From Agrococcus terreus (GTDB taxonomy: Bacteria; Actinomycetota; Actinomycetes; Actinomycetales; Microbacteriaceae), in assembly GCF_014645235.1 (NCBI RefSeq), contig NZ_BMLM01000002.1, positions 418,696-482,695 of the forward strand: 64,000 bases of DNA, read 5' to 3'. Shown piece after piece: positions 39,269 to 47,109 of this stretch; within the stretch, counting starts at the first letter, position 1; every line of letters begins with the position of its first letter. The position numbers were made by a program, and so were the translations under genes. The notes beneath the pieces are model-generated. The model searched no databases. It was given only the letters and a program-made list of their open reading frames with translations, and was not told the DNA's origin.

Positions 39269-40243
39269 CTACGGGATGGGTGCGGGCGGCGGCACGAAGC
39301 CGACGGGTCCGCCCCAGATGGCGACGGCGAGGCCGACGCCGTAGAGCAGCGCCGTCAGGCCCGTGAGCCCGAGCGCGAGGATGAGGTCGCGCGGCGTGCG
39401 CGCGAGGCAGACGATGACGATCGCGGGGCCGGCGATGAGCAGCACCACGAACACCGCGGCGCCGTAGACGAGCGCGTACGAGAAGATCCACAGCACCGCG
39501 AACGGGACGAGCATGAGGAACGCGTAGAGCGCCTTCGAGGCGCGGCGGCCGATGAGCGTCGGCAGCGTGCGCTTGCCCGCGGCCCGGTCGGTGTCGATGT
39601 CGCGCAGGTTGTTCGTGAGCATGAGCGCCGCCGAGATGCAGCCCATCGCGATGCCGAGCGCGACGGCGTCCTCGGTGATCCGGCCGATGATGGCGTAGGT
39701 GGTGCCGACGACCGCGATCGGGCCGAAGAACAGGAACGAGACGAGCTCGCCGAGACCGAGGTAGCCGTAGGGGCGCTTGCCGCCCGTGTACGTCCAGGCC
39801 GCCACGAGCGCGACGGCGCCGACGAGCAGCAGCCACCAGCGCTGCGAGAGCAGCACCACGACGACGCCGGCGATCGCGCCGGCGACGAGGAAGGCGATCG
39901 CGACGTTCCGCACCGCCGCGGGCGAGGCCTTGCCCGCGCCCACGAGCCGGCCGGGGCCCACGCGCACGGCGTCGGTGCCGCGCACGCCGTCGGCGTAGTC
40001 GTTGGCGTAGTTCACGCCGATCTGCAGGCACAGCGCGAGCACGAGGCAGGCGAGCGCGATCCCCAGGTGGTAGCCCTCGGCGTTGAAGGCCGCGGCGGTG
40101 CCGAGCGCGACGGGCGCGACCGCCATCGAGAGCGTGCGGGGCCGGGATGCGGCGATCCAGTCGCGCGCGGTCGCCGGTCGGGGTGCGGTGCCGGCGGCCT
40201 GGGCGCGCTTGGCGGGGTTGCCGGATCGGGGGTGCGGTGCCAT
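39269..40243 (-). CDS. menA: 1,4-dihydroxy-2-naphthoate polyprenyltransferase
   Basis: 324 residues with about nine membrane helices. The UbiA-type aspartate motifs are NYANDYADGVRGTD (near residue 78) and NNLRDIDTDRAAGKRTL (near residue 210). It joins the polyprenyl chain to dihydroxynaphthoate in the membrane. The N-terminal 27 residues are hydrophilic. The ATG is 8 bases from a TACGAT box with GGAGG between, so either leaderless or short-leader initiation is possible. Confidence 0.94.
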   Translation of the reverse strand: MAPHPRSGNPAKRAQAAGTAPRPATARDWIAASRPRTLSMAVAPVALGTAAAFNAEGYHLGIALACLVLALCLQIGVNYANDYADGVRGTDAVRVGPGRLVGAGKASPAAVRNVAIAFLVAGAIAGVVVVLLSQRWWLLLVGAVALVAAWTYTGGKRPYGYLGLGELVSFLFFGPIAVVGTTYAIIGRITEDAVALGIAMGCISAALMLTNNLRDIDTDRAAGKRTLPTLIGRRASKALYAFLMLVPFAVLWIFSYALVYGAAVFVVLLIAGPAIVIVCLARTPRDLILALGLTGLTALLYGVGLAVAIWGGPVGFVPPPAPIP

Positions 40244-40292
40244 CGCCTCCGATCGTATCCGCGCCCGCCACGACCGGCCGCGGGACGACGAC

Positions 40293-40323
40293 GGCGGCGG
40301 CCTCCTGGGTGGAGGCCGCCGCC
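40293..40323. terminator. Hairpin downstream of the MatC-like permease gene
   Basis: A perfect 13-bp stem (40293-40305 and 40311-40323) with loop TGGGT lies 15 bases beyond the permease stop. It separates the acid-sugar cluster from menA. Confidence 0.65.
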
Positions 40324-40337
40324 GGGTCGGACGCGCG

Positions 40338-41648
40338 CTAGAGCCCGAGGAAGGGCACCACGAACAGCGCGAGGGTGACGAGCGGTCCGATGATGACCAT
40401 CGACAGGCCCCACGTCGCGAGGTGGCGGTACAGGCGCGGCCGCTCCTCCTCGACGCCCGAGGCGACGATCGTCGCGCCCGTCGTGCCGAAGGGGGCGCAG
40501 TCGACGAGCGAGGCCGAGATCGCGAGCGCGTAGATGAAGCCGGTCATCTCGAGCCCGCCGCCCGGCACGAGCAGCGGCACGGCGAGCGGGATGAGCGCGC
40601 CGATGATGCCGATCGTCGACGCGAAGGCCGAGACCAGCGCGGCGATGACGCACATGACGAACGCTGCGAGCAGCGGCACGTTCACCGAGCGCGCGACCTC
40701 GCCGAGCTGGTCGATCGCGCCGAGGCGCGTCAGCACGCCCACGTACGTGATGATGCCGCCGAGCAGCAGGATCGTGTTCCAGTCGATCTTCCCGAGCGAC
40801 TCCTTGCCGACCTTCGGGTCGATGAACGCGAGCAGCACCGCGAGGGTGAGCGCGACCGCGCCGAGGTTGAGGTCGATGTCGAGCATCGTGACCGTGGCGA
40901 AGCCGACGATGAGCACGGGGATGGCGACGAGCGTGAGCACGCCGAAGCCGCTGAGGCGCACGGGCGCCTCGGTGCGGGTCGCGACGGCGACGCCGCCGCC
41001 GCTGCCGGCCGGCTCGCCCGCGTCCGCGGCGGCCTTCGCGGCCCGGCCGCGCGCGATGAGCTCGCGGCCGCCGAACATGAGGAACGCGGCGAGCGACACG
41101 ACCACGTTGATGCCGACCGAGAGGCCGAACATGAGCGCCGGGTTGTAGGGGATGTCGGCCGTGTTCGCGACCGTCATCACCGTGATGCCGACGATGCTCG
41201 TCGGCGCGAGCGCGCCGCCGACGATCGCCGAGCTCATGAAGATGCCCATCATCGTCGAGTGGATGCGGTGCTTGTGCGCGAGCGACATCGCGATCGGCAC
41301 GATCGTGAACGCCGCGTGCGAGGTGCCGAGGCACGCGACGAGCGTGCCGACGAGCAGCATCGCCCACGGGATGAGCGCGACGCGGTCGCCGATGAGGCGC
41401 ACCGAGCGGTCGACGAGCCAGTCGACGGCGCCGACCGTGCGGGCGATGCCGAACAGGTAGGTGATGCCGAGCAGGATGAGGAGCGCGTCGACGGGGAAGC
41501 CGCCGAGCACGTCGTCGAGCGGCTCGCCGACGACGATGACGCCGACGAGCAGCGCCGCGACGAAGGCGAGCGCGCCCATGTGGACGTTGCGGATCGCCGA
41601 GATCGCGAAGACCGCGACCAGGACGACGAGGGCGATGGCCTCGATCAT
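40338..41648 (-). CDS. SLC13/MatC-like dicarboxylate-type permease
   Basis: 436 residues with about eleven membrane helices. The MatC_N-like N-terminus is followed by an SxST-like motif in CLGTSHAAFTIVPIAMSLAH and an LIPLAVPLLVPGGGLEMTGFIYALAISASLVDCAPFG block near residue 360, as in ion-transporter superfamily carboxylate carriers. The ATG has GGGAGG 7-8 bases upstream. It follows the SAF-domain oxidoreductase by 90 bp on the same strand. Its likely cargo is the acidic sugar consumed by the neighbouring enzymes (inference). Confidence 0.83.
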   Translation of the reverse strand: MIEAIALVVLVAVFAISAIRNVHMGALAFVAALLVGVIVVGEPLDDVLGGFPVDALLILLGITYLFGIARTVGAVDWLVDRSVRLIGDRVALIPWAMLLVGTLVACLGTSHAAFTIVPIAMSLAHKHRIHSTMMGIFMSSAIVGGALAPTSIVGITVMTVANTADIPYNPALMFGLSVGINVVVSLAAFLMFGGRELIARGRAAKAAADAGEPAGSGGGVAVATRTEAPVRLSGFGVLTLVAIPVLIVGFATVTMLDIDLNLGAVALTLAVLLAFIDPKVGKESLGKIDWNTILLLGGIITYVGVLTRLGAIDQLGEVARSVNVPLLAAFVMCVIAALVSAFASTIGIIGALIPLAVPLLVPGGGLEMTGFIYALAISASLVDCAPFGTTGATIVASGVEEERPRLYRHLATWGLSMVIIGPLVTLALFVVPFLGL

Positions 41649-41738
41649 GCGCGGGCCTCCCTCACGGGCGGGCGGGCGGGGGCGTGGTGCATCGTCGTCG
41701 AGCTCCTCGTCGTGGGTGGGTGCTGGGTGCGGGGTGGG

Positions 41739-43103
41739 TCAGGCGCCGAGCGCCAGGCCGGCGCGGTACGCCTCGAGCGCGCGCTCGGGCACGCCCTCCA
41801 GGTCGGCGAGCCGGACGAGCTCGCCCGCCGGCACGTCGGCGAGCAGCCGGGCGCCGGAGAGCAGGTAGTAGGGCGCGACCTCGCCCGCGTCGGGGTCGAT
41901 GATCACGGGCGCGACGCCGGCGATCTCGTGGTGGTGGCCCTCGACGCGGAACTCGGTGCCGGCGGCGAGGTCGGCCGTCGCGCGCGCCGCGAGCACCGTG
42001 TGCTGGCGGGGCTCGGCGACGACGGCGGTGCCGTCGACGGCCGCGGCGATCGTGAGCGGCGTCTCGACCCCCATGTAGTGGTACGGCCAGTAGATGCAGG
42101 CGTAGCGGCCGTCGCGGCTGATGACGTGCCCCTTGCCGCGCAGCGTCTCCCACGTGACGGGGTCGCCGGTGCGGACGACGACGAAGACGCCGCCCGCGAA
42201 GCTCGCCTCGCCCGGCAGGCGCAGCATCGAGAAGACGTCGACGGATCCGGTGCGGCCGATGAGGCCGCCGTCCTCGCGCGCGGCGTACAGGTCGGCGAGC
42301 TCGTGGGGGCGCGCGACCGGGTAGTGCATCGCCTCGACGTCGCTCACGGCGCCCGTGTAGAGCGAGACGACGTTCATCTCGCACGCATCGGCGGCCGCGG
42401 CGCGCTTGAGGCCGGCGACCTGCTCGGCGCGGGCGGCGAGGGTCGCGTGCGGGTCGTCGCCGAGCTCGAGGAGGCCGGCGAGGCCGGGTGCGTCGACGCG
42501 GACGCCGTTCTGGTCGACGACGCCGGTGGCGGGGTCGAAGCGGAGGTCGTACTCCCCCGACTTGCCGAGGGCGACGATGTCGAACCCGGTCTCGAGCACC
42601 CAGGCGACGAGCCGCAGGAGGTTGGCGGGCTGGTCGCCGTCGCCGGGGAGGTAGCGCAGGCCGAGGCCACGCGCCTTGGCCGACAGCGCGACGCCGGCGA
42701 CCGACTCGATCTCCTTCGACACCATGACGACGTGCGCGCCGGCGTCGAGCGCGGCGTGCGCGTAGCCGACGCCCGCCTCGACGCGGCCGGTGGCCTCGAC
42801 GAGCACATCGACGGCGCTCCAGTCGATCGCGGCGCCGTCGGCGAGGGCCGCGACGCGGCCGTCGGCGAGCGCGGCGGCGGTCTCGGCGGCCGTGGTCGGT
42901 GCGACGATGGCTGCGGGGTCGACGCCGAGGTCGACGAGCATGCGCGAGACGCCCTCCACGTCCGGGTCGACGAGCTGGGCCGCGCCCATGTCGGGCAGGC
43001 GCCGCAGCTGGTCGAGCAGCGTGCGGCCGTAGCCGCCGTTCGCGCCCGTGAGGACCACGCGGATCGGGGAGGTGCGGCGGGGCGCCTGGCTCTGGATCAC
43101 CAT
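41739..43103 (-). CDS. Homoserine-dehydrogenase-like NAD(P) oxidoreductase with C-terminal SAF domain
   Basis: 454 residues, of the predicted homoserine dehydrogenase plus SAF type (COG4091-like). The Rossmann motif VVLTGANGGYG is at about residues 17-27, VLVEATGRVEAGVGYA and HVVMVSKEIESVAG near 115-140, and a SAF-type C-terminus (AARATADLAAGTEFRVEG) near 350. True homoserine dehydrogenase is unlikely: there is no ACT domain and the context is a DUF1537 kinase cluster. ATG 43103 has AGGAA just upstream. It may oxidise an acid sugar before the kinase step. Confidence 0.82.
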   Translation of the reverse strand: MVIQSQAPRRTSPIRVVLTGANGGYGRTLLDQLRRLPDMGAAQLVDPDVEGVSRMLVDLGVDPAAIVAPTTAAETAAALADGRVAALADGAAIDWSAVDVLVEATGRVEAGVGYAHAALDAGAHVVMVSKEIESVAGVALSAKARGLGLRYLPGDGDQPANLLRLVAWVLETGFDIVALGKSGEYDLRFDPATGVVDQNGVRVDAPGLAGLLELGDDPHATLAARAEQVAGLKRAAAADACEMNVVSLYTGAVSDVEAMHYPVARPHELADLYAAREDGGLIGRTGSVDVFSMLRLPGEASFAGGVFVVVRTGDPVTWETLRGKGHVISRDGRYACIYWPYHYMGVETPLTIAAAVDGTAVVAEPRQHTVLAARATADLAAGTEFRVEGHHHEIAGVAPVIIDPDAGEVAPYYLLSGARLLADVPAGELVRLADLEGVPERALEAYRAGLALGA

Positions 43104-43156
43104 CGTTCCTGTCGTTCGTGCGAGAGCCCCCGCGGTCGGCGAGGGCGAGCGTGGCA

Positions 43157-43184
43157 ACTGTATCCGAGGTTCACAGATTGTCAA
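43157..43184 (-). promoter_or_regulatory. Sigma-70-type promoter of the oxidoreductase-permease operon
   Basis: On the minus strand a perfect TTGACA (43184-43179) is followed after 16 bases by TACAGT (43162-43157). Its -35 lies within the phased operator repeats. Confidence 0.65.
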
Positions 43185-43209
43185 GCATCGTCACAAATCA
43201 TCACATACA
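43170..43209. promoter_or_regulatory. Four phased 10-bp repeats, probable DeoR operator
   Basis: The decamers TTCACAGATT, GTCAAGCATC, GTCACAAATC and ATCACATACA follow each other with no gap (consensus NTCACANATC). The repeat length equals one helical turn, as in operators of DeoR/GlpR regulators, and one such gene lies in the adjoining operon. The array overlaps both promoter regions. Confidence 0.7.
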
Positions 43210-43211
43210 CT
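43206..43211 (+). promoter_or_regulatory. -10 box of the kinase-aldolase operon
   Basis: TACACT overlaps the last operator repeat. The leader to the ATG at 43262 is about 44 bases. No good -35 is present, which suggests activation or a weak basal promoter. Confidence 0.5.
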
Positions 43212-43261
43212 GGTCGCGGCAGGGGCATCCGCCCCCGTCGCCGCAGAACGAAGAGGCCCCC

Positions 43262-44497
43262 ATGCACATCGGCGCCGTCGCCGACGACTTCACCGGAGCG
43301 ACCGATCTCGCCACGACGCTGCAGGCGCGCGGGCTCCGCGCGGCCGTCGTCATCGAGGACCGCCCGGTCGACGAGCGCGCCCTCGACGGGCTCGACGCCG
43401 TCGTCGTCGCCCTGAAGTCGCGCACCGCGCCCGTCGAGGAGGCCGTGGCCGCCTCGCAGCGCGCGCTCGACCGCGTGCTCGGCTGGGGCGCCGACCGCGC
43501 CTACGTGAAGTACTGCTCGACCTTCGACTCCACCGACGCCGGCAACATCGGGCCCGTGCTCGACGCCGCCCGCGAGCGCCTCGGCGTCGACCGCACCGTC
43601 GTCGTGCCCTCGTTCCCCGCGAACGGCCGCACCGTCGAGGACGGCCTGCTGCTCGTGCACGGCGAGCTGCTCGAGGACTCCCCCATGCGGCACCACCCGC
43701 TCACCCCCATGACGCGCTCCCGCGTGCGCGACCTCCTCGCCCCGCAGACGGCGCAGCCGGTCTCGGAGATCCCGCTCGCGGTGGTGCGCGAGGGCGCCGA
43801 CGCGCTCCGCGCCGCGATCGACGGCGCCGACCCCGGCTACCTCGTCGTCGACGCGGTCACCGACGACGACCTCCGCGTCATCGCCGCCGCCTCCGAGCAC
43901 CTGCGCCTCCTGAGCGGCGGCGCGGCGCTCGCCGCCGGCATCGACGCGACGGGCGGCCACGGCGCCGCGCCCATGCCGCCGCTGCCGGGCGGCCGGCTGG
44001 TCGTGGCGGGCTCCGCCTCCGCCGCCACCCGCGGCCAGGTCGCCGACGCGATCGCCGCCGGCCTGCCCACCCGCCAGGTCGACGTCGCCGCCGCGATCGC
44101 CGACCCCGATGCCGAGGCCGACGCGCTGGCCGCCTGGGTGCGCGGCCGCATCCCCCGCGTCGTGCCCGTGGTCTACTCCGTGGCGCAGCTCTCGGACGTG
44201 CGGCCCGACCCCGACGGCGTCGCGGCGGCCGCGGTCGAGCGGGTGCTCGCGCGGCTCGTCGCCGAGCTGGTCGGCACCGGCGAGGTCGACCGCGTCGTCG
44301 TCGCCGGCGGCGAGACGAGCGGCGCCGTCGTGCAGGCGCTCGGCGTCGGCATGCTGCGCATCGGGCCGCAGCTCGCGCCCGGGGTGTGCTGGAGCGCCGC
44401 GACCACCGCCGACGGCCGCGAGGTGGGCCTCGTGCTCAAGAGCGGCAACTTCGGCGCGCCCGACCTCTTCACCAGCGCCTGGGAGGCACTCCGATGA
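43262..44497 (+). CDS. otnK: DUF1537 four-carbon acid sugar kinase (OtnK-like)
   Basis: 411 residues. The N-terminal substrate domain starts MHIGAVADDFTGATDLATTL and has YVKYCSTFDSTDAGNIGPVL near residue 80. The C-terminal nucleotide domain shows VVVAGGETSGAVVQALGV and LVLKSGNFGAPDLF. Known members are 3-oxo-tetronate kinases (OtnK) and D-threonate or erythronate kinases. ATG 43262 follows a GAAGAGG site. Its stop overlaps the aldolase start (ATGA). The exact acid sugar is not known here. Confidence 0.9.
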   Translation: MHIGAVADDFTGATDLATTLQARGLRAAVVIEDRPVDERALDGLDAVVVALKSRTAPVEEAVAASQRALDRVLGWGADRAYVKYCSTFDSTDAGNIGPVLDAARERLGVDRTVVVPSFPANGRTVEDGLLLVHGELLEDSPMRHHPLTPMTRSRVRDLLAPQTAQPVSEIPLAVVREGADALRAAIDGADPGYLVVDAVTDDDLRVIAAASEHLRLLSGGAALAAGIDATGGHGAAPMPPLPGGRLVVAGSASAATRGQVADAIAAGLPTRQVDVAAAIADPDAEADALAAWVRGRIPRVVPVVYSVAQLSDVRPDPDGVAAAAVERVLARLVAELVGTGEVDRVVVAGGETSGAVVQALGVGMLRIGPQLAPGVCWSAATTADGREVGLVLKSGNFGAPDLFTSAWEALR

Positions 44498-45147
44498 CCG
44501 CGCCCGACCTCGCTGCCGCCCTCATCGACGCCGGCCGCCAGCTCGTGGACGCGGGGCTCAGCCCGGGCAGCTCCGGCAACGTCTCGGTGCGCGACGGCGA
44601 CCGCATCCTGATGACCGGCACCGGCACGCGGCTCGGCGCGCTCGAGCGCACCGACCTCGCCGAGCTCGCGCTGGACGGCACGCCGCTCGGCGGCGCCCGG
44701 CCCTCCAAGGAGGTCGCGCTCCACCTCGCCCTCTACGCGAAGAACCCCGAGCACGCCGCCGTCGTGCACGTGCACTCCCCCAGCGCCGTCGCCGCAGCCT
44801 GCCTCGCGCCGTGGAGCGACGAGAGCGCCGTGCCGCCGCTCACGCCGTACGCGCTCATGCGCGTCGGCCAGGCGCCGCTGCTGCCCTTCGCCGCGCCCGG
44901 CGACCCCGCCATGGGCGAGCGGATCGCCGCGAGCCCGCACCCGTTCCGCGCCGCGCTGCTCGCCAACCACGGGGCCGTCGTCAGCGGCGAGGACCTCGCC
45001 CGCGCGGTCGACAGCACCATCGAGCTCGAGGAGTGGTGCCGCATCGCGCTGCTCACGCAGGGCGCCGCGCGTACCCTCATCGCGCCCGAGCACGTGCGCG
45101 CGCTCGCCGACCGTTGGGGCATGCCGTGGACCGGCCCGCTCGCGTGA
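44494..45147 (+). CDS. otnC: Class II aldolase / 3-oxo-tetronate 4-phosphate decarboxylase (OtnC-like)
   Basis: 217 residues, close to OtnC and L-fuculose-phosphate aldolase. The zinc ligands are His92 and His94 (HVHS) and His159 (LLANHG). Glu73 (SKEVALH) is the catalytic acid/base. In the OtnK/OtnC route this enzyme decarboxylates the phosphorylated 3-oxo acid to dihydroxyacetone phosphate. Tight coupling to the kinase (ATGA) supports that role. A true aldolase on a different acid sugar cannot be excluded. Confidence 0.85.
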   Translation: MTAPDLAAALIDAGRQLVDAGLSPGSSGNVSVRDGDRILMTGTGTRLGALERTDLAELALDGTPLGGARPSKEVALHLALYAKNPEHAAVVHVHSPSAVAAACLAPWSDESAVPPLTPYALMRVGQAPLLPFAAPGDPAMGERIAASPHPFRAALLANHGAVVSGEDLARAVDSTIELEEWCRIALLTQGAARTLIAPEHVRALADRWGMPWTGPLA

Positions 45148-45158
45148 CGCGGATCGCC

Positions 45159-45164
45159 TAGGCT
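45159..45164 (+). promoter_or_regulatory. -10 box of the DeoR regulator gene
   Basis: TAGGCT lies 21 bases before the ATG at 45186, with GGAGGGCCGAGG between. This gives a short leader with a ribosome site, in contrast to the leaderless genes. Confidence 0.5.
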
Positions 45165-45185
45165 GACCGGCGGGGAGGGCCGAGG

Positions 45186-46016
45186 ATGACCGAGCAGAGC
45201 ATGGCCGACGCGGCCGCGGCGAGCGCGCCGCTCATCCCCGAGCAGCGTCGCGAGAGCATCGTGCGCCACCTGCAGCGCGAGCGGGTGCTCAGCTTCCGCC
45301 AGCTCACCGAGCTGCTCGGCGTGAGCCACATGACCGTGCGCCGCGACGTCGCCGCGCTCGAGGAGCAGGGCCGCGTCGCCGCGACGCCCGGCGGCGCGAA
45401 GCTCGCGCCGCGCCTGCTCGCCGAGCCGAGCCGGGCAGAGAAGCAGGACGCGGACCTCGCCGAGAAGGACGCGATCGCCCGCGCGGCCGCCGCGCTCGTG
45501 CGCGACGCGATGACCATCTACCTCGACGCGGGCACGACGATGCAGGCGATGCGCCCGTACCTGCAGGGCGTCTCCGACCTCACCGTCGTCACGAACGACC
45601 TCGCCACCGTCCAGGCGTTCCTCGACCACCCCTCCGTCGACCTCATCTCGATCGGCGGCCGGGTCGAGCGCTCGAACCTGTCGACGATGGGGCGGCTCGC
45701 GCGGCTCGCGCTCGCCGAGCTCTCGATCGACGTCGCGTTCATCTCGTCGAGCTCGTGGGACCTCCAGCACGGCATCACGACGCCCGTCGAGGCCAAGGTC
45801 GAGGCGAAGCGGGCGGCGATCGAGGTGGCCGAGACCGCGGTGCTCGCGGCCGACTCCTCGAAGTACGGCCGGTTCGGCAAGTACCGGGCGCTGCGGCTCG
45901 ACGAGATCGACGTCGTGATCTCGGACGCGGGGCTGCCGCCCGAGGCCGCCGCCGACCTCCGGGCCGCCGGCGTCGACCTGCGGATCGCCGGCGAGCCCGC
46001 GGCCGACGCGGCCTGA
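45186..46016 (+). CDS. DeoR/GlpR family transcriptional regulator
   Basis: 276 residues. The N-terminal helix-turn-helix (residues 37-62: FRQLTELLGVSHMTVRRDVAALEEQG) is the DeoR signature. The C-terminal sugar-phosphate sensor has YLDAGTTMQAMRPYL near residue 118 and AADSSKYGRFGKYRAL near 223. It should repress the divergent acid-sugar operons until a phosphorylated intermediate binds. Its probable operator is the phased repeat array at 43170-43209. A 20-residue polar N-terminal extension precedes the usual start of the family. Confidence 0.91.
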   Translation: MTEQSMADAAAASAPLIPEQRRESIVRHLQRERVLSFRQLTELLGVSHMTVRRDVAALEEQGRVAATPGGAKLAPRLLAEPSRAEKQDADLAEKDAIARAAAALVRDAMTIYLDAGTTMQAMRPYLQGVSDLTVVTNDLATVQAFLDHPSVDLISIGGRVERSNLSTMGRLARLALAELSIDVAFISSSSWDLQHGITTPVEAKVEAKRAAIEVAETAVLAADSSKYGRFGKYRALRLDEIDVVISDAGLPPEAAADLRAAGVDLRIAGEPAADAA

Positions 46017-46043
46017 GCCCGCGGGGGCGACCCGCCCGCCACG

Positions 46044-46095
46044 CGGCGGTCTCGACTCGGGCGGCGCCTGCGGCGCCGTCCGGCTCGACCGGCGG
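46044..46095. repeat. GC-rich palindromic spacer between DeoR and menE genes
   Basis: GGTCTCGACTCGGGCGGC, a GGCGCC-TGC-GGCGCC hairpin and GGCTCGACCGGCGG resemble a degenerate copy of the dispersed GCTGGTCGAGG element. It separates converging genes and may end transcription. Confidence 0.4.
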
Positions 46096-46107
46096 AGGGG
46101 CGAGCGG

Positions 46108-47109
46108 CTACCCGAACAGGCCGCGGCGGCGGCGCTCGCCCGTGCGGCTCGCGACGAGCTTCTGCAGGCGCTTGCGGTCGGGCTTGCCCGACGCGGTCGT
46201 GGGCATCACCGACACCGTCACGAGGTGGTTCGGGCGCGCGGGCTTGCCCAGCGCGTTGCCGACCGCCGCGCGGATCTCGGCGAGCGACGGCTTGAGCGTC
46301 GTCACGACCGCCGGCACCTCGCCCCACTCCGGGTGCGGCGCGGCGACGACCACCGCATCCGGTGCGAACACCTGCACGACGTGCTCGACCGAGGCGAGCG
46401 AGATCTTCACGCCGCCCGAGATGATGACGTCGTCGATGCGGCCCGACACCTGCAGCGTGCCGCCCAGCAGCGACCCGGCGTCGCCCGTGCGGTACCAGCG
46501 CACGCCCGCCCCGTCGGTGATGAAGCGCTTCGCGGTGAGCTCCGGGTCGTCGTAGCCGTCGGCGAGCTGCGGCCCCGAGATCTCGATCTGGTCGGTGAGG
46601 CGGATCTTCACGTCGCGCAGCGGCCGGCCGTCCCACACGCAGCCGCCCACCGTCTCGGTCGCGCCGTACGTGCGCGTCACGCGCCAGCCGAGCCGCGCGG
46701 CGCGCTCGATGAGGCCGAGCGGCGCGCGCTGGCCGCCCAGCAGGATGCGGTCGAGGCGCGCGATGGGTCCGATGAACGAGCGGTCGAGCGCGGCAGCGTC
46801 GACGAGCCGCGCGAGCTGCGTGGGCACGAGCGACGTGAACGTGCGGTCGTGCTCGAGCTGGCCCAGCGCCTCCACGAACGCCTCCGCGGTGAACGACCCC
46901 TCGGTGCGCACGAGCGGCGCGCCCGACGCCTCGTTGCGCCAGATCACGTTCTTGCCCGCGATGTAGTGCTCGGGCAGCGCCAGCACCCACTGGCCCGCGC
47001 CGCCGAGCCGCTCGTTGGCGGCGTCGGTCGAGGCGCGGATCGCCTCCTCCGAGATCACGACGCGCTTGGGCACGCCGCTCGACCCGCTCGTCTCCACGAC
47101 GATCGGCAT
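46108..47109 (-). CDS. menE: o-Succinylbenzoate-CoA ligase
   Basis: 333 residues, an acyl-adenylating enzyme. It starts at the P-loop (VVETSGSSGVPKRVVIS) and has RTYGATETVGGCVWDG near residue 175, WYRTGDAG near 240, a VSGRIDDVIISGGVKI hinge and TASGKPDRKRLQ with the catalytic lysine. The N-terminal portion before the P-loop is missing, as in other actinobacterial MenE forms. ATG 47109 has GGAGG 8 bases upstream. It activates o-succinylbenzoate with CoA for MenB. It is 20 bases from menB. Confidence 0.91.
   Translation of the reverse strand: MPIVVETSGSSGVPKRVVISEEAIRASTDAANERLGGAGQWVLALPEHYIAGKNVIWRNEASGAPLVRTEGSFTAEAFVEALGQLEHDRTFTSLVPTQLARLVDAAALDRSFIGPIARLDRILLGGQRAPLGLIERAARLGWRVTRTYGATETVGGCVWDGRPLRDVKIRLTDQIEISGPQLADGYDDPELTAKRFITDGAGVRWYRTGDAGSLLGGTLQVSGRIDDVIISGGVKISLASVEHVVQVFAPDAVVVAAPHPEWGEVPAVVTTLKPSLAEIRAAVGNALGKPARPNHLVTVSVMPTTASGKPDRKRLQKLVASRTGERRRRGLFG

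Follow-up and report, generated by a model that had tools for sequence, protein, structure and literature searches.

Our analysis of a 64,000-nucleotide stretch of Agrococcus terreus DNA from contig NZ_BMLM01000002.1 (here "the window", whose numbering is used below) finds five genes in two divergent units at 40338-46016. The leftward unit consists of an oxidoreductase gene and, 90 bases further on, a permease gene; the rightward unit encodes a DUF1537 kinase, an aldolase and a DeoR regulator, and the kinase stop and aldolase start codons overlap as ATGA. This gene content and order, with the coordinates, the ATGA coupling and the divergent arrangement, had been described in a first-pass annotation of this DNA, and all of it is confirmed from the sequence. 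The cluster is a real, conserved acid-sugar operon, and it is plausibly a complete three-enzyme one, with an oxidoreductase from an uncharacterised branch of the DRL family at its base. Its features are as follows:

40338..41648, minus strand: MatC/CitMHS-type carboxylate permease, 436 amino acids (Pfam MatC_N and CitMHS matches; PF07158 111.2 bits, cut-off 23; PF03600 85.6 bits, cut-off 31.9)
41739..43103, minus strand: DRL/DXR-II-like oxidoreductase of the COG4091 type and the D-x-C-E branch (see below), 454 amino acids (PF21135 DRL_cat, 81.9 bits)
43157..43184, minus strand: sigma-70-like promoter TTGACA-16-TACAGT of the oxidoreductase gene (consensus match only, 10/12)
43166..43205, minus strand: four direct repeats of 10 bases each (TGTGANNATN type), forming an operator-like array that overlaps the oxidoreductase promoter
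43262..44497, plus strand: DUF1537 kinase of the OtnK type, 411 amino acids (NCBIfam NF043035 398.6 bits, cut-off 350; Pfam SBD_N and NBD_C)
44494..45147, plus strand: class II aldolase/decarboxylase, OtnC-like, 217 amino acids (Pfam PF00596, 154.5 bits)
45186..46016, plus strand: DeoR-family regulator, closest to YgbI, 276 amino acids (NCBIfam NF040890 222.8 bits, cut-off 400)

The oxidoreductase and its partner enzymes

The oxidoreductase belongs to the DRL/DXR-II fold family. It scores far above the cut-off of 27 bits for PF21135 ("Oxidoreductase DRL, catalytic domain"), and the only PDB sequences that match it at E<=0.001 are 3upy and 3upl (phmmer E 3.5e-27 and 3.6e-27, respectively). An AlphaFold model made with 29 aligned sequences has a mean pLDDT of 94.2. 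Foldseek ranks 3upl first for this model, with a match along its whole length (E 3.5e-31, TM 0.75/0.78); apart from 3upl and 3upy, the strongest match is weaker by 24 orders of magnitude. The fold is that of the Brucella DRL (DXR-II), an isoprenoid enzyme, with 24% identity in the fold alignment. The first-pass annotation held that the COG4091-type protein had no agreed function, and this needs correcting at the level of the family, which has a characterised member in DRL/DXR-II (PDB 3UPL/3UPY) and named groups DLO1 and DLO2 (excerpts of PMC3847144). Its "SAF" label survives in the alignment and fold match to 3UPY/3UPL; the Pfam SAF domain model PF08666 finds no match on the protein at E<=0.001, although the C-terminus still aligns with 3UPY.

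Unlike DXR-II itself, with which it shares the full-length fold and the DRL catalytic domain, the window protein lacks two of the three residues that excerpts of PMC3847144 give as the fosmidomycin anchors of DXR-II (K191, K193 and T229). K191 is kept as K181 (numbering from the ATG at 43103), while K193 is replaced by G183 and T229 by D239, so that its residues are not those of DXR-II proper; it carries instead D-x-C-E (D239, C241, E242) and GHHH motifs, and it keeps company with acid-sugar genes. The two lost anchors would fit a substrate without a phosphate. A DXR-II role in isoprenoid synthesis is very unlikely, and was rejected, because of these two replacements and because an ordinary DXR is encoded in the A. 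terreus genome. The description "homoserine-dehydrogenase-like" is likewise not supported by the family models, in that no NCBIfam model matches at E<=0.001 and Pfam finds no homoserine dehydrogenase catalytic domain; the Pfam homoserine dehydrogenase NAD-binding domain gives a marginal match (24.4 bits against a cut-off of 24). Relatives of this protein are named homoserine dehydrogenase, flagellar biosynthesis protein FlgA or SAF domain-containing protein in public records.

The kinase passes the equivalog cut-off of the 3-oxo-tetronate kinase (OtnK) model NF043035, as do the nine other cluster kinases that were scored singly (10/10), and that model is also matched at E<=3e-105 by all 31 kinases of an alignment, which come from 28 loci of the scan described below and from the window, with E. 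coli YgbK and the second A. terreus OtnK added as controls. If the kinase is rightly named, these matches tie the product of the oxidoreductase to 3-oxo-tetronate. The aldolase has NF043034 as its best NCBIfam match at 197.1 bits, below the cut-off of 250, and so is called OtnC-like only; E73, H92, H94 and H159 are present in the alignment and satisfy what we take to be the class II aldolase metal site, one Glu and three His. The DeoR regulator is 41.5% identical to E. coli YgbI, with a score that falls short of the cut-off of the YgbI model.

Distribution of the oxidoreductase branch and its neighbours

We scanned the genomes of 84,980 species, one genome for each, using a profile built from ten window-type proteins. 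The scan confirmed 134 relatives; these were found through two peptide patterns, by which divergent members are missed. The best 80 of the 134 loci were kept, which come from Actinomycetota and Pseudomonadota; neighbours were sought in the fetched stretch, up to 10 kb on each side, and the counts are conditional on the presence of the oxidoreductase. A kinase homologue accompanies it in 78 of the 80 loci, an aldolase homologue in 77 and a DeoR homologue in 78, so the cluster is not a chance arrangement, and a MatC homologue is found in 35. When the E. coli ygbIJKLMN products were used as queries, YgbK, YgbL and YgbI homologues each appeared in 78 loci, and YgbJ (LtnD) and YgbM (OtnI) homologues in one, both in the same locus (L077). 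In gene maps drawn by simple gene calling, four genes form a core around which the carriers vary (for example MatC, GntP and MFS); no second family of oxidoreductases recurs in this core, and an SDR family member lies within 6 kb in 5/80 loci. The pairing of a COG4091 protein with a DUF1537 kinase to which the first-pass annotation drew attention is thus a conserved arrangement, with the COG4091 protein where a dehydrogenase and an isomerase usually stand. Amidohydrolase genes also lie near the core in 17 of the 80 loci (27 genes), often with MFS carriers (e.g. L072 12596-14472); the one tested is L-fucono-lactonase-like (83.7 bits, cut-off 400), and these genes hint at a lactone precursor.

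All but one of the 80 scan loci show the D-x-C-E motif (79/80), and the exception, L079, looks like a break in the reading frame. A tree of 54 DRL-family rows, which we chose ourselves and partly by known context (so that a shuffle test made on it lacks independence), was rooted at its midpoint and gave tool warnings of long branches meeting and of an odd make-up in six rows. It has a 100/100 fork, one side of which holds 40 rows including the window oxidoreductase. The partners of these 40 are OtnK in 33, OtnK with PdxA in one, PdxA in four and neither in two; among the other 14 rows OtnK accompanies none, and one lies near a different DUF1537 kinase. Asp-x-Cys-Glu occupies the T229 site in 40/40 rows of the branch versus 0/14 of the others. 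A search with the DRL_cat model through 396 genomes of the phylum found matches in 51 genomes, with 58 places listed, of which 20 were picked after the search from different score levels to serve as controls (5 of the 20 stretches are shortened, by contig ends or by our own choice). None of these 20 other DRL-family places has a DUF1537 homologue (0/20) or D-x-C-E (0/20), and several of their proteins resemble DXR-II itself, with GKGK and T at two anchor sites. The known holders of the branch in the 396-genome table are A. terreus and one other genome (G083), both with adjoining OtnK and aldolase genes. Tree rows and control places were chosen by hand, so these counts show specificity and not a rate.

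According to excerpts of PMC3847144, the DXR-II family contains, besides DXR-II, the groups DLO1 and DLO2, both uncharacterised; four DLO1/DLO2 proteins were unable to replace DXR, the excerpts giving no function for them, and Streptomyces sp. SirexAA-E is listed under DLO2. The single DRL_cat match in the SirexAA-E genome is a window-type protein accompanied by kinase, aldolase and DeoR genes, and part of DLO2 is therefore probably the D-x-C-E branch, SirexAA-E being the member through which the likeness to DLO2 is drawn.

Starting from the kinase, we found OtnK at E<=1e-80 in 7 of the 396 genomes, in 8 places, which are too few for a rate. Two of these have LtnD and OtnI, a second place in A. 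terreus itself (on C1) has a 3HCDH-type dehydrogenase, the window has its D-x-C-E protein, and G083 has a distant D-x-C-E protein. At the places in G097, G161 (a 4 kb contig) and G260 none of the oxidoreductase queries matched, DenD not being among those queries.

Relatives are also carried on plasmids. Of 101 plasmid records with an oxidoreductase match 60 were listed, and 22 regions were opened, two of them without annotation. The gene set is kept and its order changed on proteobacterial plasmids, namely those of Comamonas, a leaf Comamonadaceae, Paracoccus, Palleronia, Alloyangia, Ancylobacter and Agrobacterium and a conjugative one of Klebsiella, on which all five genes run in one direction. 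OtnK and OtnC homologues accompany 10 of the 15 branch members opened, and LtnD or OtnI at E<=1e-6 accompanies none (0/15). On the plasmid of Paracoccus sp. TOH the oxidoreductase gene is flanked on one side by PdxA and dihydroxyacetone kinase genes and on the other by OtnK and aldolase genes. A dihydroxyacetone kinase gene lies beside PdxA in L158 and L167, and such neighbours suggest a non-phosphorylated PdxA route. The window kinase matches 1021 plasmid records at E<=1e-30, of which 198 align with 80% or more of the query at a single place; Klebsiella accounts for 614 of the 1021, and 784 are typed as conjugative or mobilizable.

A candidate route and its alternatives

The LtnD/DenD-OtnI-OtnK-OtnC tetronate pathway (E. 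coli ygbIJKLMN) was reportedly described by Zhang in 2016. The window cluster is like it in having an OtnK-type kinase, an OtnC-like decarboxylase, a YgbI-like regulator and a permease, and unlike it in that LtnD and OtnI are not among its genes, a single DRL-family oxidoreductase standing in their place, and in that the permease is of the MatC type. In the four-step route of PMC12540250, as excerpted, LtnD makes 2-oxo-tetronate and OtnI shifts the carbonyl, and a Brucella operon is given in excerpts of PMC10580937 as ltnD, otnK, otnI, denD and otnC. Judged by its gene families, the window cluster probably works like the OtnK/OtnC pathway and differs at the oxidation step. Among the matches listed from titles and abstracts of open-licence PMC articles, none joins a D-x-C-E-type oxidoreductase with DUF1537.

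We give a probability of about 0.58 to the reading that the cluster is a three-enzyme route for a four-carbon acid sugar, in which the DRL-family oxidoreductase replaces LtnD (or DenD) and OtnI. The observations beneath it are the gene set, the family of the kinase, the fold, the conservation, the signature residues, the array shared by the two units, and the fact that no OtnI or PdxA was found in the genome. The MatC-type permease would import a four-carbon acid (an erythronate or threonate), and the oxidoreductase, with NAD(P)+, would convert the tetronate directly to 3-oxo-tetronate, doing alone the work of LtnD (or DenD) and OtnI. OtnK would then phosphorylate 3-oxo-tetronate at C4, and the OtnC-like enzyme would decarboxylate the phosphorylated product to dihydroxyacetone phosphate for glycolysis, with the DeoR protein repressing both divergent units through the shared repeat array. 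The substrates, the reactions, the redox direction and the link between regulator and operator are in each case what we infer from those observations.

In the window neither LtnD nor OtnI has a match at E<=1e-3 (DenD was not searched for); in the whole genome OtnI has two partial matches only (the best 30% at 3.2e-6), and no PdxA was found. The first-pass annotation had LtnD, PdxA and OtnI all absent, which is correct for LtnD and OtnI in the window and for PdxA in the genome; an LtnD homologue is, however, encoded at another locus (C1 ~129-132 kb, L110 6967-10150; 250.3 bits, cut-off 350). That annotation had also asked whether LtnD and OtnI homologues exist elsewhere under identical regulation. 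An LtnD homologue does, though with a DUF1537 gene of its own, whose product passes no named kinase model, and a GntR-like neighbour (by eye); no such OtnI turned up. Genes resembling gyrA and gyrB (by eye) adjoin this pair. A further locus (C1 ~311.5-318.4 kb, L111 8523-15418) has the second OtnK, an OtnC-like aldolase and a 3-hydroxyacyl-CoA-dehydrogenase-like enzyme, without OtnI, and GntR-type regulator and TRAP transporter genes by eye; there the dehydrogenase-like enzyme perhaps makes 3-oxo-tetronate directly. At C1 ~264-271 kb (L004 9099-15913), two DRL-family proteins without D-x-C-E flank TRAP-like genes (by eye), and a tartronate-semialdehyde-reductase-like gene (195.5 bits, cut-off 340.75) overlaps the second of the DRL-family genes.

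Since there is no clear OtnI and no PdxA in the genome, the oxidoreductase would either oxidise C3 directly or oxidise C2 and shift the carbonyl within one site. The latter is the bolder option, for which the fold offers a precedent by analogy, as DXR-II is a reductoisomerase. In its general form, an acid-sugar oxidoisomerase in which one DXR-II-fold site moves the hydride and shifts the carbonyl, and so turns a linear tetronate or a branched four-carbon acid (2-(hydroxymethyl)glycerate, by a reversed DXR-like rearrangement) into 3-oxo-tetronate, it is a tentative proposal that we think is probably not correct. An oxidoisomerase, ApnO, is known from the D-apionate route, where it is followed by the DUF1537-type kinase OiaK. 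An oxidoisomerase that runs DXR chemistry backwards on a branched acid sugar in particular (apionate or 2-(hydroxymethyl)glycerate, the latter of which could give 3-oxo-tetronate by one rearrangement), leaving the product to the kinase and decarboxylase, would suit the branched acid sugar that the first-pass annotation had put forward as one option, and would accord with the reductoisomerase fold and with the inclusion of OiaK, as named in NCBIfam, among the DUF1537 kinases. We consider it decidedly unlikely: the window kinase scores only 97.7 bits against the OiaK model NF042436 (cut-off 700), in contrast to its score on the OtnK model, so that an apionate kinase identity was rejected and the cluster differs here from the D-apionate route; and the clusters, in those families that were identified, show no recurring gene recognised as acting on a four-carbon ketose phosphate. 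The oxidoreductase might alternatively make only 2-oxo-tetronate, the route being completed by a promiscuous or unlinked isomerase or by the kinase/decarboxylase pair. A three-step L-threonate route that, like the window cluster, does without OtnI (LtnD, 2-OtnK and 2-OtnC; Guo 2024, cited in excerpts of PMC12540250) speaks for this, yet as excerpted that route uses LtnD and an F_bP_aldolase-type decarboxylase whereas the window aldolase is of the Aldolase_II type, and the window kinase passes the cut-off for a 3-oxo-tetronate kinase in a genome with no clear OtnI, which leaves this version unlikely.

Two further explanations take the oxidoreductase out of the making of the kinase substrate. 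It could be an epimerase or reductase that feeds another acid in. PdxA is an oxidising decarboxylase, and four members of the branch pair with it and have no DUF1537 gene nearby, as such an enzyme might; but nearly all of the 80 loci have no LtnD or OtnI homologue that could make the oxo-acid, and the PdxA and OtnK sets that lie side by side in Paracoccus sp. TOH may be parallel branches, and we regard this role as very improbable. That a DXR-II isoprenoid enzyme or a homoserine dehydrogenase adjoins the kinase by coincidence is scarcely credible. The DRL_cat domain and fold, the marginal NAD-binding match and the name in public records favour such an identity, and against it stand the replaced anchors and the ordinary DXR, the failure of the homoserine dehydrogenase models, and the linkage to the kinase in 78 of the 80 loci.

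Several points weigh against the three-enzyme tetronate route itself. A kinase homologue is missing from 2 of the 80 loci (L060 and L090). Of the 15 plasmid branch members, four (L149, L153, L158 and L162) have PdxA and a tripartite transporter and no DUF1537 gene nearby and one has neither partner, so the oxidoreductase is not tied to OtnK alone. The aldolase lies below the OtnC cut-off and may catalyse a different reaction. With two other DUF1537 loci in the genome, the window cluster may serve another acid or another condition. Three distant members (L120, L155 and L156, from G083, Ancylobacter and Agrobacterium) were perhaps placed in the branch by long-branch attraction, although their motif and OtnK neighbours are independent of that placement. 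An Asp that ends the second Rossmann strand is a hint of NAD use; it is present in 39/40 branch rows but also in 13/14 others, and thus gives no sign of cofactor or direction, and a preference for NAD argued from it was dropped as not discriminating. In the distant trio (~30% identity), an Asp/Glu racemase (L155) or an arylsulfatase (L156) is annotated between oxidoreductase and kinase.

Intergenic array, chromosomal setting and significance

The 10/12 consensus match of the sigma-70-like promoter of the oxidoreductase gene compares with a mean of 0.0 in 50 shuffles, and the array that overlaps it reads, on the minus strand from 43205 to 43166, TGTGATGATT TGTGACGATG CTTGACAATC TGTGAACCTC. A two-decamer score of at least 11/14 is reached in 50 of 69 intergenic regions (the window included) versus a mean of 0.3 (maximum 2) in 40 single-letter shuffles; many of these regions come from related species and are not 69 independent cases. 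The array is a predicted operator to which the DeoR protein would bind.

The cluster lies between menE and menA, the junction spanning window positions 40126-46108. MenD, MenA and MenB pass their NCBIfam cut-offs, and MenE has OSB-CoA ligase as its best match, below the cut-off. MenE and MenA lie 5984 bp apart here and at most 1274 bp apart in 21 of 24 Agrococcus genomes; the other long gaps are 5615 bp (G548) and 3060 bp (G544, whose junction carries a 3 kb insert). This comparison bears out the earlier statement that the cluster interrupts men genes. Window-type oxidoreductase genes (at least 79% identical) are present in 3 of the 24 genomes. G536 and G537 have clusters that share 83.5% to 83.6% DNA identity with the block at ~40332-45992 but lie in different flanks. 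MenE identity (95%) makes G548 the nearest relative, and its junction holds tripartite tricarboxylate transporter genes and regulators (by eye), so the menE-menA junction is likely an insertion hot spot in Agrococcus. Foreign base composition was tried as a sign of acquisition and gives no support (GC 0.747 in the cluster, 0.742 in the window); the case for insertion rests on synteny.

These findings offer a function open to test for a branch of proteins recorded as homoserine dehydrogenase, FlgA or SAF protein, and point to a likely role for part of DLO2, an uncharacterised group. The D-x-C-E motif is a short signature that separates proteins of this branch from DXR-II, which matters given that a survey of isoprenoid pathways took COG4091 as the source of its DXR-II model (excerpts of PMC10663253). 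On the three-enzyme reading, the branch represents a second design for feeding the OtnK/OtnC pathway, found on chromosomes and plasmids of two phyla. If the oxidoreductase isomerises as well as oxidises, this would suggest where the chemistry of DXR-II came from, and the isoprenoid enzyme would on that view have branched off from an old family whose members are oxidoisomerases of sugar acids.

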